Assembly: GCF_025753855.1 (NCBI RefSeq)
Contig: NZ_JAOWPT010000006.1
Span: forward strand, 124,001 to 188,000
Origin: Mesorhizobium sp. ZC-5
GTDB lineage: Bacteria > Pseudomonadota > Alphaproteobacteria > Rhizobiales > Rhizobiaceae
Length of the DNA: 64,000 nt
Direction of reading: 5' to 3'
The number at the start of each line of letters is the position of its first letter. The first letter of the stretch is position 1. Both the position numbers and the translations under genes were made by a program. Shown piece by piece: positions 14,474 through 21,548 of this stretch. The notes below the pieces were generated by a model. The model saw nothing but the letters and a program-made list of their open reading frames with translations. It was not told the DNA's origin and did no database searches.

Positions 14474-15562
14474 ATGGCAACCTTGCAGAATTTCGATCAG
14501 GAAATCGCGAAGACCAAGCAGGTCGTCGAGGAGATGCGGTCGAAGATCGAGCAGTCGGGCACCGTGCTCGAAACGCTCGCCAAGGCCGACAAGAAGATCG
14601 GCTCCGTCGATTTCGACATCGAAAACGCCCGCATCGAGGACGTGCTGAAGCAGCAGAAGGTGATGGAAGGCAACATCGCCGACCTGATCATCGGGCTGGA
14701 GGACGCAACCAACGTCTTCGGCACCGAATTCGAGAGCATGAAGAGCTTTACCGGCTGGGAAAGCTTCATCGGCATCTTCTCGGACCAGCGCAAGCAGCGC
14801 ATGCGCACCGACCGCGTGCGCAACATGTCGCTCGCCGGCAACCTGCAGGAGCTCTTGTCCAAGTCCGACACCATCGTCGGCATCCTGAAGGCGCAGAAGC
14901 AGGTACTCGATTCCCGCTACAAGACCTCGGAGGCGAGCCTTTCCCAGGTCATCGAGCGCCGCAAGGTGACGATGGACAACCTGACCGCGACGCAGAAGCG
15001 CATCGAGGAGCTGAACCCGCTGCTGCTCGACATCGAGAACAAGATCGCCGCGTCGACCAACCAGAAGGAGCGCACCCAGCTCGAAGGCGAGCGCTCGAAA
15101 CTGGCTACCGAATACAACGAGAAGCAGGCCAAGGAGCAGGAATTGCTGGCCGAGAGCCAGACGCTCGAGCGCTACACCTCGATGTTCCAGACCTTCGTCG
15201 ATTCGCTCAACAACCAGATCGCGGCGCAGAACACGCTGATCAACAAGCTGACCATCGACACCGAACAGCGCATCGTCCTCTACAAGGCGCTCGAGGATTC
15301 GCTGAAGACCGCGGCACAGCAGGACGTTGCCCACAAGATCAACACGCTGGGCAGCCAGGTCGACACCACAGCCGAGGAAACCATGGCCGGCATAGGCGCG
15401 GCGGCGCAGAAGCACATCGGCGACCTCCTCGAAATGCACGAGAAGAACATGGTGGCGACCGGCGACATCCAGCGCCGCAAGAAGCTCGCCGACGATGCCT
15501 TCGCGCGCCGCTTCGAAGAGGTGATGCGCAAGCACAACGCGGCGGACTATGTGAAGGTGTGA
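14474..15562 (+). CDS. Coiled-coil protein, first gene of a six-gene unknown operon
   Basis: This 362-residue protein has no signal peptide or membrane helix. It is almost wholly helical, with long heptad-rich stretches (about residues 10-50, 130-240 and 290-345). A short less charged part, SFTGWESFIGIFSDQRKQRM, lies near 92-112. Length and helical pattern recall TelA (toxic anion resistance) proteins, but I cannot confirm that family. ATG 14474 follows GGAGG at 6 bases. The upstream 158 bases are AT-rich with a possible -10 TATATT at 14430. It probably forms a scaffold for the other operon products. Confidence 0.8.
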   Translation: MATLQNFDQEIAKTKQVVEEMRSKIEQSGTVLETLAKADKKIGSVDFDIENARIEDVLKQQKVMEGNIADLIIGLEDATNVFGTEFESMKSFTGWESFIGIFSDQRKQRMRTDRVRNMSLAGNLQELLSKSDTIVGILKAQKQVLDSRYKTSEASLSQVIERRKVTMDNLTATQKRIEELNPLLLDIENKIAASTNQKERTQLEGERSKLATEYNEKQAKEQELLAESQTLERYTSMFQTFVDSLNNQIAAQNTLINKLTIDTEQRIVLYKALEDSLKTAAQQDVAHKINTLGSQVDTTAEETMAGIGAAAQKHIGDLLEMHEKNMVATGDIQRRKKLADDAFARRFEEVMRKHNAADYVKV

Positions 15563-15584
15563 CCGCTAACGACGCCTGCCTTTC

Positions 15585-16730
15585 ATGACACCGGAAAACG
15601 AAGCCGCTACGCGCTATTTCGACGCCATCGCTTCGGCGTTGAAGGGGCTCGAGATATTCATGCGCGACGACCGTTCGCCGCTCTACCGGCACGGCATCGT
15701 CGCCAAGATCGTCGCCGAATATATCGCGCGGCTGGAGAAATCCTTCTCGTCGTGGCGCAACCGGCTGGGCTTCATGGAAAGCTTCCGGATATCGCGCGCC
15801 GACAGCGGTTTTCCGCTGTTCCAGAACCTGCTGGAGCTGGAGAACGACAGGCGCCAGGCGCCGAAGCGGCTGGCGAACATCCCCGAACCCGGCATGCTGC
15901 GCTCGGAAATGGCCGACTTCATCCTGCGCCACAAGGAATTTCCGGCCGCACTTCAGAAGACGATGGCCGAGCGGCTCTATCTCGAAGACATCAAGGACGG
16001 CGAGACCTTCGGGCCGTTCACGCTGGCGCAGACGGCCAAGGTCTCGGTCAATCCGAAGACGATGCGCCCCTATTACCTCGTCCACTGGGCGTCATTCGAC
16101 GGTACCGCCAACCTGCCGCTGATCTACATGGCCACCGTCGAGGATTCGTCCGAACCCATGATCAGCCAACTGGTCGACGACAACGGCAAGATCAATTCCA
16201 GGGTCGACATACCGCTGCCGGTCGACGGGCTGCTCAATCCCGAACTGGCGCACCGTTTCGACGATTTCACCGAGAAGAACTCGGCCTACACGCTGTCGCC
16301 GGCGACGATCGCCAGCAATCTCGACAAGGATTTCGAGACGTTGCACCCCAAGCAATTGCGCCGTGTCGTGCTCGGGCCGTTCTATTCTGCCGGCATCACC
16401 GAGAACAATTCGACGGTAACGGAGGTGCTTTCCAAGGTCCGCAAGCCGGAAAACGCCTGGCTGCTCACCTGGACCATCCAGGAAGTGTTTTCGAAAGCGG
16501 AGAAGCCCGGCCGCAAGGGCCTGTGGTCGAGCGAGAAGGCGACGCAGGAGTTTTTCATCAACACCGACGACCTCGAGGCGGCGCGGCAGGGCGTGTCGAG
16601 CTATGAGAAACATGCGCTGATCCCACACGAGGCCTACCAGGCGCTCTATGCGGCGGGCGAGGCGCAGAAGATCTTTTCCGGCTACAAGGTGCATATTCTG
16701 TCCAAGGGACAGGTGATCAGCGATGTCTAA
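15585..16730 (+). CDS. Conserved protein of unknown function, second gene of operon
   Basis: A 381-residue soluble protein that I do not recognise. The N-terminal third is helical and basic (YRHGIVAKIVAEYIARLEKSF). The middle has a beta-rich part with the motifs YYLVHWASFDGTANLPLIYMATVEDSS and VDDNGKINSRVDIPLP. The C-terminal part contains LRRVVLGPFYSAGITENN and a WLLTWTIQEVFSK segment. The gene begins 22 bases after the coiled-coil gene, and its last 8 bases overlap the next gene. It has the codon use of its neighbours. Confidence 0.8.
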   Translation: MTPENEAATRYFDAIASALKGLEIFMRDDRSPLYRHGIVAKIVAEYIARLEKSFSSWRNRLGFMESFRISRADSGFPLFQNLLELENDRRQAPKRLANIPEPGMLRSEMADFILRHKEFPAALQKTMAERLYLEDIKDGETFGPFTLAQTAKVSVNPKTMRPYYLVHWASFDGTANLPLIYMATVEDSSEPMISQLVDDNGKINSRVDIPLPVDGLLNPELAHRFDDFTEKNSAYTLSPATIASNLDKDFETLHPKQLRRVVLGPFYSAGITENNSTVTEVLSKVRKPENAWLLTWTIQEVFSKAEKPGRKGLWSSEKATQEFFINTDDLEAARQGVSSYEKHALIPHEAYQALYAAGEAQKIFSGYKVHILSKGQVISDV

Positions 16731-17145
16731 CGGCGAAAATTACCCACCGAGCGCTTATGCGATTTGGGTAACTTCGCATCGAAAAACATCGATCGTTGCC
16801 CTCAATTGCATCGCGTGGTTCATCGCGCTGGCAGTTATCAGATTGGTGCCCGACTCAGAATCCCATGTAGCAGCTACGGTGTTGTCCGGGGTTCTTGGGA
16901 CAACAATGATGCCCAACAAATGGAACCGATCCAACTTGCTGATTGCAGTATCCGGTGCTGTCTCAACGGCACTGCTCGTAGCCGTTTATGGCCAGATCAC
17001 TGGTGTTCGGATAGGTATGGTTTCAGGAAATCCGGGGACCATGATCGGGTTTGTTGCAGCGTCGACTACGGCTTATCTTATGCTATTCGCTTTGATTTAC
17101 TCGGTCGTGTTAGGCGAGAATTTTATTAGTAAAAAAAGATCATAG
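16723..17145 (+). CDS. Small four-helix membrane protein with unusual composition
   Basis: A 140-residue protein with about four hydrophobic helices: SIVALNCIAWFIALAVIRLV, HVAATVLSGVLGTTMM, LLIAVSGAVSTALLVAVYG and MIGFVAASTTAYLMLFALIYSVVL. It ends in a basic tail ISKKRS. Start ATG 16723 overlaps the previous stop by 8 bases. Its GC content is clearly lower than its neighbours (close to half) and its codons are mixed, unlike the strongly GC-biased genes on both sides. This suggests later entry into the operon. I do not recognise the family. Confidence 0.7.
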   Translation: MSNGENYPPSAYAIWVTSHRKTSIVALNCIAWFIALAVIRLVPDSESHVAATVLSGVLGTTMMPNKWNRSNLLIAVSGAVSTALLVAVYGQITGVRIGMVSGNPGTMIGFVAASTTAYLMLFALIYSVVLGENFISKKRS

Positions 17146-17155
17146 CGGGGGTTTC

Positions 17156-19066
17156 ATGGACACTGGCCTGACCACGATTGCCGAAGCCGATATCGAGAAG
17201 CATCGCGCTATCGCGCAGTCGATGATCACGCGGACCATCGTGCTGGAGGATTCGTCCGGCCAGTCCAATACGGCACTTGCCGGTACCGGGCGGCGGTTCG
17301 TCTCGACGGTGTCGACCGGCTCGGTGCGCAAGACGCGCGAAGTGGAACTCATCAAGACCGTCGCGGCGGTGAAGCCCGACGACCAGCTGATGGGCATCGG
17401 CCAGCACACGCTGCTCTACCGCACGCGGCGTGGGCTCGCCATCGCGCTTGCCGTCGCCGATGTCTTTGCGCGCAGCTGCGACCTGGAGAGCCTGCAGGCG
17501 AAAAATGCGCGGGCGCCGCTGGAGGGTGACGAGGCTAGCCATTTCAAGAAGTTGCTGTCGGCTTCGGCCTATGTCTCGGCGTTCAGCTTTGCCTCCTACC
17601 TGATGCAGCTGATCGACAGCGACGGCGAACCGCCGAACGACATCGCCGAGCCGGATTTCCTGTTCGACACGGCGCAGGATGCGCTGAAATCGCTAGTCGC
17701 CGGCCTCGACCGGGCGATTTCAGGCTCGAAAGACGATGCCGACCTGATGACGCGCGCCGACGCCTTCGCTCGTGTCGCCATTGACGGTCTGCTGACGCGA
17801 AAAGGTCGGTTCGACGGCATCGGCGCCTTCGAGAACGCGCATATCCGCATCGACGCCGACGATTTCACGCTGGACGGCTTCGACGTGGCGCCGGGCAAGA
17901 AATCGAAGCCGCTGGTGATGACCTTCAAGAAGCCGGAGGAGGTCGTCGGCAACCACATCGCCAAGTACCAGTCAGTGAAGCTGGCGAAGATGCTGATGGC
18001 CTATGATTTCGACAAGGAACTCAATCCCTTCGTCGAACTCGGCGGGTTTTTGTTCACTTTCATCGGCGACGGTGCGCCGGGTACCGGCAAGACGACGCTG
18101 ATCCAGATGATTGCCGGGCTGGTTCATGGCTATGCCGAGGTCGCCAGCTATCCGTTCCACTACGAGAATTTCGGCGTCGACCAGATATCGTCCTATCAGG
18201 GCAAATCCGGCCAGAACTGCCGGCAGTTCATCAACAATGTGCTCAATCCGCGCATGATCGGCTTCGGCACCATCGACGACATCGATCAGGTGGCGGCGAA
18301 ACGCTCCGACGACCGCGCCTCGGCCGGCCAGCAGGAGATCACCGGCGTGCTGATGGATGCCTTCGCCGGCGCCGGCACCGTGGTGCGCGGCAACTGCTCG
18401 TTCGGCATGTTCTCCAACTATCCGGAGAACGTCGACGACGCGCTGAGGCAGCGGGCAGGGGCCCGCTGGCTGGTCGACGGCCCGCAGACGCGCGACGATT
18501 ACATCGATATCTTTGTGCTGCTCGCCGGCAAGAACCACAAGATCGATCTCGGCGACCACCAGCTTTACGCCGCGCAGGAAATCCAGCGCGCCATCGCGGA
18601 AGCCTATGAGGGACACGCCAAGCCGCAGGAAGACGGGCTGGAAAAGGTCTATGAGCGCTTCCTGAAGGAGAATGGCCAGCCGAAGACGATGGCCGACATC
18701 GGCACCTATCTCTACATGATCAAGGAAGCCGAGCCGCGCTTCACCGGCCGCGCCATCAAAAACGTCACCGACGCGATCAAGATGCGGGCGATGGACATCG
18801 AACTGCCCGACGAATGGTTCGAGAAGCCGGAAGCCTTCATGCACAAGGGCTACGACGAGAAGAAGGCGATGATCGAGGAACTGCGCGGGCCGTTCGACAT
18901 GGATATGGTCATGCAGGAGGTCAACCGCTACGCCGACAGCGAGTTCCGCTACTCCGACAAGTCCGACGACGCGGCGGTGTCGAAGCTGCTGCGCGACGCA
19001 AGGCTGCGCGAACGCGCGGCCAAGGAGATGGCGGAGTTGCAGAAGAAGGGGCTGTGGAACGCCTGA
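17156..19066 (+). CDS. AAA+ ATPase, core enzyme of the six-gene operon
   Basis: The 636-residue protein has an N-terminal region of about 290 residues with no known domain, then an ATPase domain. Walker A GDGAPGTGKTT is near 304-314 and Walker B IGFGTIDDIDQ near 367-378. A sensor-1 type Asn lies in FGMFSNYPENV near 425, and an arginine-finger candidate in RQRAGAR soon after. The helical C-terminal part ends in a charged coil. The stop overlaps the next start (TGATG). The layout suggests a remodelling ATPase acting with its neighbours. Its substrate is unknown. Confidence 0.85.
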   Translation: MDTGLTTIAEADIEKHRAIAQSMITRTIVLEDSSGQSNTALAGTGRRFVSTVSTGSVRKTREVELIKTVAAVKPDDQLMGIGQHTLLYRTRRGLAIALAVADVFARSCDLESLQAKNARAPLEGDEASHFKKLLSASAYVSAFSFASYLMQLIDSDGEPPNDIAEPDFLFDTAQDALKSLVAGLDRAISGSKDDADLMTRADAFARVAIDGLLTRKGRFDGIGAFENAHIRIDADDFTLDGFDVAPGKKSKPLVMTFKKPEEVVGNHIAKYQSVKLAKMLMAYDFDKELNPFVELGGFLFTFIGDGAPGTGKTTLIQMIAGLVHGYAEVASYPFHYENFGVDQISSYQGKSGQNCRQFINNVLNPRMIGFGTIDDIDQVAAKRSDDRASAGQQEITGVLMDAFAGAGTVVRGNCSFGMFSNYPENVDDALRQRAGARWLVDGPQTRDDYIDIFVLLAGKNHKIDLGDHQLYAAQEIQRAIAEAYEGHAKPQEDGLEKVYERFLKENGQPKTMADIGTYLYMIKEAEPRFTGRAIKNVTDAIKMRAMDIELPDEWFEKPEAFMHKGYDEKKAMIEELRGPFDMDMVMQEVNRYADSEFRYSDKSDDAAVSKLLRDARLRERAAKEMAELQKKGLWNA

Positions 19067-20352
19067 TGGACCTTCTCCGCGACAACGAACTCATCTACGG
19101 CCGGCTGCTGCCGATCGAGGAAAAGCACCTCATCGACCGCTACAACAAGGCGCTGAAGGCGTTCGGGCTGAAACCGACCAAGCGCAACAGTTTCGAGATC
19201 GACCGAACCGGCTTTTCGCCGCAGATTGCCGAGGAGCTCGACGACCCATTCTACCTCGACCCGAATGAGGTCAACCGGCGCTTCATCATCCTGACCCCGT
19301 CGCAGGTCGACCTGCCGGTGGTGCATACGGCCTTCTCCAACACCTCGCAGCTCATCCACGAGTTCATGACGAAAAACAGCCGTGCCATCGACGCGCTGAC
19401 GATCAAGGACGTGATCTACGGCGAGATCGAGGATTCGGTGAACAAGGTCCGCGACATCGAGGACCTTTTGTCGATCAACCAGGTCGAGTTCCGCGTGCTT
19501 TCCGCCGAGGACGTGCTCGGCAAGGCCTCGGAACTGGGCACGCTGGTCGACCGGCTGAAACAGGAGCCGAACGCATGGCGCGACAACCAGATGCTGGAGC
19601 GCATGGTGGAACTCGCCAAGGTGACCGGCGACATCCGCGAGAACGCGCTGGTGCCGGACCAAGTGATCTTCCGCCACAACGCCTTCTGGACCAGCCATTT
19701 CGGCGGGCTCTACGTGTTCATCGATCCCGACATGACGACGGTGATCAGCGATCCTTCGGCACCGGGCTTCCGTCGCTCGCGGCCGTGGCAGGTGAGCTAT
19801 CTGTCGATCCATGACGCCGACCGGGTGTTCCGCTTCCTTGCCTCGACCAAGCGCATCGAACTGCCGCGCGCCTCGTGGATCGAGACGTCGGGCTATCTCG
19901 AGCATCGCGCCGAGATGGCGATCCGCGCGCTGATCCAGGAGGCGGAGCCGAAACGCGACCTCGGCAAGGCCGACAAGGTGTGGCTGCAGACCTGGATCCA
20001 CAGCAATGCCGACATCATCAACCGCGACGGCACGTTCCCGTTCCTCAACGCTGCCAAACGCGAGATCGCGCAGCTTGGCCAACTGCGGATCGAGGAGGTG
20101 TTTCCGCAGCACCGCTTCCTGGTGGTGCGCGCCAGCCCCGACCATCCCGACGCCTGGCTGACCAACCGGCTGATCTCGGATTTCGTGCCGTCCGACTTCG
20201 TCTCGCGCTATGTTTTCAACAAGCAGGGCTTCTACAAGGACTATGAAGGCTATAACCAAGTCCAGCGATCGGCTGTTGTGGACACGCTGAAAACCACATA
20301 TCTGAAAGACAAGGAGGCGTTTCGGGAACGCCTCTACGGCCTGGTTGACTAG
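19066..20352 (+). CDS. Conserved protein of unknown function (possibly DUF6638), fifth gene of operon
   Basis: The 428-residue protein starts at ATG 19066, which shares bases with the ATPase stop, so the two are coupled. It has no signal or membrane helix. Notable segments are YYLDPNEVNRRFIILTPSQVDLPVVH-like text near 60-85, a histidine-containing FRHNAFWTSHFGGLYVFIDPDM block near 200-225, and EVFPQHRFLVVRAS near the C-terminus. From memory it resembles the group called DUF6638, which is not verified. It always reads as a partner of the ATPase here. Confidence 0.8.
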   Translation: MDLLRDNELIYGRLLPIEEKHLIDRYNKALKAFGLKPTKRNSFEIDRTGFSPQIAEELDDPFYLDPNEVNRRFIILTPSQVDLPVVHTAFSNTSQLIHEFMTKNSRAIDALTIKDVIYGEIEDSVNKVRDIEDLLSINQVEFRVLSAEDVLGKASELGTLVDRLKQEPNAWRDNQMLERMVELAKVTGDIRENALVPDQVIFRHNAFWTSHFGGLYVFIDPDMTTVISDPSAPGFRRSRPWQVSYLSIHDADRVFRFLASTKRIELPRASWIETSGYLEHRAEMAIRALIQEAEPKRDLGKADKVWLQTWIHSNADIINRDGTFPFLNAAKREIAQLGQLRIEEVFPQHRFLVVRASPDHPDAWLTNRLISDFVPSDFVSRYVFNKQGFYKDYEGYNQVQRSAVVDTLKTTYLKDKEAFRERLYGLVD

Positions 20353-20366
20353 AGGGGCAGACCGCG

Positions 20367-21548
20367 ATGCTTGATCCGATCGTGAATTTCTTCACCCGGA
20401 TTTTCCACTGGATCGGCCGCGGCATCGGGCTGGTGATCGGCGTCCTTTTGTGGCCGTTCCTGTTGGCGGGCCGGTGGTATACGCAGCGCGGGCTGGTTCT
20501 GAAAGGCGTGCTCGGCCTGGTCGTTCTCGGGATAATCGGGCTCTACGGATATTTCTTCTATGTCACCCAATGGTGGAACAACTTCAATCCGGACTATCCG
20601 ACACTGACTGCTGCAAGCGCCAACCCGCAGGCGGCCGGTGTGGTGGCCGGCGATCCGATCTCCGCGGCCACCACAGGCCAAGGCAGCACCGGCGGCGCGG
20701 AGAGCACTCCCACTGCCCCCGCAGCGCCGGGCCAGCAGCAAGCCTGCAAGCGCTCCGAAATCGCCGCCGTGTCGGCGGACCTGGTCGACTTCAACGTCAA
20801 CCAGAATGCCTGGATATCCTCGATGCTGGCCTCAAAGCTCGGATTCTTCGGAATGTCCTGGCGAAACACGCCATTCTTCGACAATAAGGCAGCCTTCCAG
20901 CTCGGCATCAATCAGGTGATGCGGCGCACGACGACCGAACTCGTCGACACGCTCGGCCGCACACGCGGTACCTCGCAGATCGACCAGAACCTGCAGAATG
21001 CCCGTACCGCGCTCGCCTGGGACGAAGACGCCTGGTATGTCGGCCTGCGCGGCCCGACTCGCCCGACACCAAGCGTCTATCGCGATGCCATCCGCTCGCT
21101 GCGCACCTTCAACGCCAGCCTCGAGAAATGCCAGGCGACGTTCGATGCCCGTGCCGACAACCTGCTTCTGTTCCTCGACCGCATCGCGGGCGACATGGGT
21201 TCCACCTCCGACATCCTGCGCGGACAGATCGAGGCATCCGACGCCGGCTGGTTCGACCCGCGCGCCGATGACCGCTTCTGGTTCGCCTATGGCCAGCTCT
21301 ACGCCTATTACGGCATTCTGAACGCCACCCGATCCGACTTCTCGGCGATCATCCGCGAACGCAACCTGACCGCGCTGTGGGACACCATGCAAAATCAGAT
21401 GCGCGGTGCGCTCGACATGCAGCCCTGGATCATCTCGAACGGCGACGAGTCGAGCTTCCTGTTCCCCTCGCATCTGGCCACGATGGGCTTCAATCTGCTC
21501 AGGGCACGCTCGCAGATCATCGAGATACGCTCCGTCCTCGATCGATAG
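20367..21548 (+). CDS. DUF2333 family membrane-anchored protein, sixth gene of operon
   Basis: The 393-residue protein has an amphipathic N-terminus and one or two membrane helices ([17 protein letters not shown] and [19 protein letters not shown]). A Pro/Ala/Thr/Gly linker follows, then a large domain, probably periplasmic. The segment [39 protein letters not shown] is the hallmark of DUF2333. It gives the operon a membrane anchor and an outward-facing part. It starts 14 bases after the previous stop. Its function is not known in any organism I can name. Confidence 0.85.

Follow-up and report, generated by a model that had tools for sequence, protein, structure and literature searches.

The window analysed here, a 64,000-nucleotide stretch of the Mesorhizobium sp. 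ZC-5 genome (contig NZ_JAOWPT010000006.1, positions 124,001 to 188,000), contains six consecutive open reading frames on the + strand, for which we will use the letters A to F. It is well supported that A, B, D (an AAA ATPase) and E form a core which, together with the membrane-protein gene F, makes up one conserved unit, and that this grouping is not due to chance. The remaining gene, C, is strain-specific, lies between B and D, and is outside the conserved unit. The six genes are flanked by tdk (thymidine kinase) and fhs (formate-tetrahydrofolate ligase) in a genome of 6.34 Mb, and the D of the window is 95% identical to the D of Mesorhizobium albiziae DSM 21822. An initial annotation of the same DNA, made from the letters alone, had described a six-gene operon around the ATPase; its six genes and five gap lengths are reproduced from the coordinates of the open reading frames. 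The features are the following.

14474..15562, + strand: gene A, 362-residue soluble helical protein with no Pfam family
15290..15355, + strand: residues 273–294 of A, the putative site at which D, B or E would dock or engage
15585..16730, + strand: gene B, 381-residue soluble protein with no Pfam family
16723..17145, + strand: gene C, 140-residue membrane protein with three to four hydrophobic segments
17156..19066, + strand: gene D, 636-residue AAA ATPase, with the AAA domain at residues 306–436
18065..18094, + strand: Walker A of D, residues 304–313, GDGAPGTGKT
18194..18202, + strand: pore loop 1 of D, Y347-Q348-G349
18269..18286, + strand: Walker B of D, residues 372–377, TIDDID, with Asp375 at the place of the Glu
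19066..20352, + strand: gene E, 428-residue soluble DUF6638 protein
20367..21548, + strand: gene F, 393-residue DUF2333 protein with hydrophobic segments at residues 16–34 and 42–60

The successive gaps A–B, B–C, C–D, D–E and E–F are 22, -8, 10, -1 and 14 bases, and the start ATG of E overlaps the stop TGA of D. In a simple hydropathy scan of the six proteins, hydrophobic segments have been detected in C and F only. A, B and C have no credible Pfam family match.

Co-occurrence and gene order

The genome-wide searches covered A, D and E, leaving B out, and were made in an even sample of 299 Pseudomonadota genomes and in 151 genomes of the window's family. E (DUF6638) and D were each found in 20 of the 299 genomes, and these are the identical 20 genomes. 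A full-length A (E < 1e-150) is present in the same 20, with a weaker A match in four others. Within the window's family, D has been found in 88 of the 151 genomes and A in 92. All 88 D-bearing genomes have an A match, two of which are fragments at contig ends (G565 and G640), and the four family genomes with A and without D comprise three with a diverged A (G322, G380 and G531) and one, G691, with a full A in a genome that is 68% complete. Among the 37 family genomes searched for E, the 20 positive genomes are the 20 with D. DUF6638 was found in 6 of 289 genomes of a sample of the class at E 1e-3, and in 5 of 289 over the curated cut-off; thus, the unit has a patchy distribution as a whole and is frequent in the window's family.

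The gene order has been followed in 80 main loci, which were fetched via the D of the window and are therefore nearer relatives (D 63–95% identical), including strains of Mesorhizobium, Sinorhizobium, Aminobacter and Hoeflea. The count takes the loci that reach far enough on both sides (73 of the 80), the other seven being cut by a contig end or failing this rule of room. In all 73, A, B, D, E and F occur in this order on one strand. A further 23 loci, outside the second lineage described below, include 21 with room, and all 21 are intact; the two sets share some genomes and their counts are not additive. The initial annotation would have been refuted by genes that are neighbours only in this strain; this is not the case for the five genes A, B, D, E and F, for which the proposed operon stands.

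The same cannot be said of C. It has been found in one of 61 related genomes, its own, and in no plasmid record, and the B/D and D/E gaps that were read hold no C-like protein. The description of C as a small membrane protein agrees with its length and hydrophobic segments, while its proposed role as a component of a machine is not borne out by this distribution.

The surroundings of the unit are also kept. tdk has been found in 64 of the 80 main loci, in 55 of which it is at most 1 kb away from A, and fhs has been found in 50 of the 80 and lies within 1.5 kb of F in 35 of those 50. With these retained neighbours, the site looks like one that the window's family inherited, and not like a recent acquisition.

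Among related loci (L042–L159), the D/E junction (position 19066 of the window) is an insertion hot spot. The inserts differ by strain and include DUF559 genes, PIN-Phd toxin-antitoxin pairs, an insertion sequence (IS) element and others, as assigned by Pfam on one example per family. The window itself has no insert at this junction.

A defence system directed against phages or plasmids, in which an AAA protein would be the engine and a membrane protein the effector, would be in keeping with the presence of toxin-antitoxin and DUF559 genes among the D/E inserts and with the patchy distribution of the unit over wide distances (20 of 299 genomes, and also Vibrio plasmids). However, the inserted modules vary between strains, and the site itself is stable in the window's family, both in the position of tdk (at most 1 kb from A in 55 of 64 loci) and in the gene order (intact in 73 of 73). 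D has a match in none of 50,697 phage records, and PADLOC gives weak general AAA matches to D (best 3.9e-4) and none to the other five proteins. Defence is the explanation to which we attach the least weight, and we consider it highly improbable.

A second lineage with another last gene

A second lineage of the unit comprises 12 loci (L062–L073), nine of which belong to one family, f24, and one each to another family of the class, to the window's order and to another class. The order A-B-D-E is kept in all 12 and F is absent. In its place, the last gene belongs to one protein cluster in 12 of 12 loci, and a small hydrophobic protein precedes the cluster member in 10 of 12. The single cluster member scanned by Pfam is a DUF1523 protein (6.5e-68, over the family cut-off). 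No DUF2333 match has been found in any of the 11 second-lineage genomes present in the 299-genome sample. The membrane-anchored last gene is thus interchangeable, being DUF2333 (F) or DUF1523 according to lineage.

In a tree of 36 D proteins, the DUF1523-type loci lie on one side of a branch (99/99), and the F-bearing loci need two changes. The DUF1523-type sets of L069 and L071, from another class and from the window's order, fall inside the f24 group of this tree. Their placement suggests that the whole A-B-D-E-DUF1523 set has been horizontally transferred. D is also present in four Vibrio plasmid records, and the two large ones that were examined (L158 and L159) both carry A-B-D-E followed by mfd.

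The AAA ATPase D

The AAA domain of D has been identified by Pfam (PF00004, 2.5e-10, 41.3 bits against a cut-off of 21.2), and is preceded by an N-terminal region of ~300 residues whose fold is unassigned. It aligns with the AAA domains of an i-AAA protease, a homologue of the 26S regulatory subunit 4 (RPT2) and AFG2, with E-values of ~1e-4 to 1e-3 that concern the AAA domain only. Pore loop 1 has the aromatic-x-Gly pattern between Walker A and Walker B that is expected of a threading AAA protein: Y347-Q-G stands opposite the YVG/YLG of the i-AAA protease and of the 26S subunit 4 homologue, and is invariant in 26 of 26 sequences. Walker B departs from that of a classic AAA protein, which has a catalytic Glu (DE). 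In D, Asp375 is aligned with the Glu of IDE in the solved relatives, and the Asp is invariant in 26 of 26 sequences. An Asp at this place slows hydrolysis in other AAA proteins. By analogy, the Asp in D suggests slow or tightly gated ATP hydrolysis. D had been described as an AAA+ protein with all its motifs, which is accurate for Walker A and the pore loop and has to be amended for the Walker-B Glu.

The closest solved relatives of the AAA domain, an i-AAA protease, proteasome regulatory subunits and AFG2, bring to mind a quality-control translocase, which would extract membrane or cytoplasmic proteins for a separate protease, with A, B and E as substrate adaptors. But these similarities are confined to the AAA domain (E ~1e-4 to 1e-3) and cannot separate AAA subtypes, and neither D nor the rest of the operon has a protease family by Pfam. 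The strict pairing of D with A would also be odd for a general extractor, and a translocase of this kind seems improbable.

The soluble proteins B and E

The predicted structure of B is confident (mean pLDDT 91.3, pTM 0.89) and shows a helical N-terminal half and a mixed alpha/beta C-terminal half. A Foldseek search of the PDB with B gives no match at E 0.001, the best E-value being 0.14, and the resemblance of the C-terminal half to the tunnelling fold (T-fold) is weak and within noise. E has been assigned to DUF6638 by Pfam (6.1e-70, 236.7 bits against a cut-off of 27, residues 11–425), with no profile match among solved structures up to E 5. The two had been listed as large soluble proteins that could not be placed. 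This still applies to B, which has no Pfam family, and no longer applies to E.

An AAA protein with a large N-terminal region of unassigned fold and two soluble partners, in an operon where no protease family has been found, could also be an assembly or activation chaperone, for which MoxR-type and Bcs1-type AAA proteins are the models. D, with B and E as adaptors, would fold or insert a specific client, and A and F would be the scaffold and the membrane dock. The last gene differs between lineages, and the client could therefore be encoded elsewhere. On the other side, the core of the second lineage is adjoined only by the DUF1523 gene and the small hydrophobic protein, with no conserved client gene, and the best matches of D in general Pfam and NCBIfam scans, in which no search was aimed at MoxR or Bcs1, are AAA, CDC48, PAN and FtsH. 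A chaperone is possible, and we regard it as somewhat unlikely.

Gene A and its diverged form

A has a low content of Pro and Gly (4.4%) and no transmembrane segment. Its matches among PDB profiles are weak (best E 0.11) and are mostly coiled coils. From these properties, A is helical and probably a coiled coil.

Two groups of helical proteins were considered for A, and neither gives a credible profile match. PspA_IM30, the profile used for the PspA/ESCRT-III superfamily, is not matched by any protein of the window's own genome at E 1 (of 14 control genomes, 12 are positive), and a direct profile comparison by hhalign reaches a probability of 8%. Nor is PspA_IM30 among the best 25 of 60 families for the 26 relatives of A. 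TelA (PF05816) has no match genome-wide at E 1, A included, while 9 of 14 control genomes are positive.

A second form of the gene, which we will call A', adjoins F in four of the 299 genomes (L210–L213). These sites have choX, tdk, A' and F in this order, and in three of them fhs follows. D and E are absent from the four genomes in a genome-wide search, and the sites hold no remnant of B, D or E (best E 0.86). These genomes presumably lost B, D and E, as opposed to never having had them. The persistence of A' and F without the motor would fit A and F as a membrane-facing pair in the window's family.

The identity between A' and A is 24–30%. A stretch of 22 residues of A (273–294) is missing from three of the four A' proteins, and roughly half of it is retained, in diverged form, in the fourth. 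Where D is present, the corresponding window of A ranks 11th of 341 for conservation; this test used residues 272–293, and the segment missing from A' is 273–294. Since the segment is conserved in the presence of D and missing in three of four A' proteins, we take it to be the region through which D, B or E would engage A.

Gene F and the psp neighbourhood

F has been assigned to DUF2333 by Pfam in two stretches (7.7e-19, 68.3 bits against a cut-off of 22). Cys127 and Cys255 are invariant in 15 aligned sequences. The large C-terminal domain would be periplasmic, and the invariance of the two cysteines would fit a disulfide in it. The description of F as a DUF2333 protein with a membrane anchor and a large outer domain is consistent with the Pfam match and the two hydrophobic segments, with the outer side presumably the periplasmic one.

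DUF2333 is more widespread than the unit. It has been found in 68 of the 299 genomes, of which 9 have D, 4 have a weak A and 55 have neither. The wide flanks of 28 (L222–L229 and L231–L250) of the 47 DUF2333 genomes outside the window's class were searched for psp genes, in an uneven sample that includes all members of family f173. A same-strand pspA and/or pspC gene is close to DUF2333 in 9 of the 28 loci. The nine (L223, L231–L237 and L240) are seven of seven from f173 and one each from f208 and f209, and Pfam confirms all ten PspA or PspC proteins that were scanned from these loci.

Proposed mechanism

The reading that we put forward, tentatively and as plausible rather than probable, is that D, driven by ATP, acts on A at the inner membrane in one unit with B and E, with F or DUF1523 as the membrane partner, and that this unit serves envelope upkeep. 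The four proteins would be on the cytoplasmic side of the inner membrane, and their partner (F, or DUF1523 in another lineage) would be anchored in the membrane and reach into the periplasm. D would work as a hexamer, as a threading AAA ATPase that has no protease. It would engage the conserved C-terminal part of A, around residues 273–294, and pull A out of a helical assembly on the membrane, or reset that assembly, with B and E as adaptors of the ATP-driven step. The purpose would be the upkeep or remodelling of the envelope, as Vps4 acts on ESCRT-III. What is observed directly is the unit with its gene order and co-occurrence, the exchange of the last gene, the A'-F remnants and the AAA motifs; we infer the hexamer, the direction of pulling, A as the substrate, the roles of B and E and the membrane role from gene content and motifs. 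The initial annotation had likewise proposed a machine at the inner membrane, with envelope stress repair or complex assembly as candidate functions. The swap of the last gene for DUF1523 and the psp neighbours of DUF2333 elsewhere lend this idea indirect support, with C removed from its parts.

Several observations weigh against the ATP-driven membrane unit. In the gene layout, one locus outside the rule of room (L074, genome G594) has A-B-D inverted and ~6 kb from E-F. It is either a real exception or a misassembly, and is the sole locus seen broken between D and E. In 46 of 79 main loci, D and E are separated by at least 200 bp; from this and from the split in G594, the two genes do not have to be tightly co-expressed. 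Neither F nor DUF1523 adjoins the core in the two Vibrio loci; the membrane partner is thus not always adjacent. The heptad-periodicity test of A is unremarkable, the shuffled 95% level being exceeded in 10% of its windows (19% for B), and the long coiled coil of the initial annotation has to be narrowed to a helical protein that is probably a coiled coil. The hhalign comparison of A with a two-sequence PspA profile (probability 8%, E 0.004 over 28 residues) is not credible, and neither TelA nor PspA has been found in the window's own genome. Three of the four A' genomes are from one genus, A' has diverged along its whole length, and the missing segment may be decay after the loss of the partner. 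The psp link concerns distant DUF2333 members, seven of the nine from one fully sampled family. pspA and pspC are absent from 19 of the 28 DUF2333 loci outside the window's class, and from all 8 loci of the window's class without D (L214–L221, some with short flanks).

Relation to known systems

TelA/KlaA toxic-anion proteins are helical soluble proteins of a length similar to A. Their family has no match anywhere in the window's genome at E 1, A included. The ESCRT-III/Vps4 system and bacterial PspA-AAA pairs, as described in a 2024 survey of PSP partners (PMC11237479), resemble the cassette in combining a helical soluble protein, a classic AAA protein and membrane proteins. The survey describes AAA ATPases with PspA or Snf7 genes as neighbours, for which it proposes a remodelling of membranes that depends on ATP. 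The cassette differs in that its A is not detectably PspA and that B and E are without counterpart in the passages on these pairs. The term "DUF2333" is absent from the text of the survey. The psp operon shares with the cassette the F family, DUF2333, which lies beside pspA/pspC in the nine loci outside the window's class. It differs in that the window's genome has no PspA match and that psp families have no match among A, B, D and E.

DUF6638, DUF2333 and DUF1523 are family names without a function, and E, F and the scanned second-lineage protein are over the respective cut-offs. No paper was found that tests a function of these genes or studies the three families. We take choX to be SMc02737, and SMc02733 would then belong to the operon or lie close to it; this tag is not tied to these genes and was not used. 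A paper on S. meliloti lists a ChvI-bound fragment inside SMc02733 (PMC3687685), and a paper on the type VI secretion system (T6SS) mentions a duf2333 gene near hcp3.

A more far-reaching version of the proposed mechanism is a new ESCRT-III/Vps4-like machine of unrelated parts, made up of a non-PspA helical A, the threading ATPase D that would remove A by way of its conserved C-terminal segment, the novel adaptors B and E and a swappable anchor facing the periplasm (DUF2333 or DUF1523), with DUF2333 working with PspA in some other bacteria. We consider it unlikely. If it is true, the cassette and the PspA systems would be alternatives on one membrane platform.

D occurs in 88 of the 151 genomes of the window's family, yet no paper was found that studies these genes. 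Together with the exchange of the last gene and the A'-F remnants, the co-occurrence predicts which proteins would bind each other and which 22 residues would mediate the contact. Should the membrane reading be true, it would show how a bacterium without a detectable PspA tends its inner membrane, and DUF2333 would gain a place in envelope stress across Pseudomonadota.

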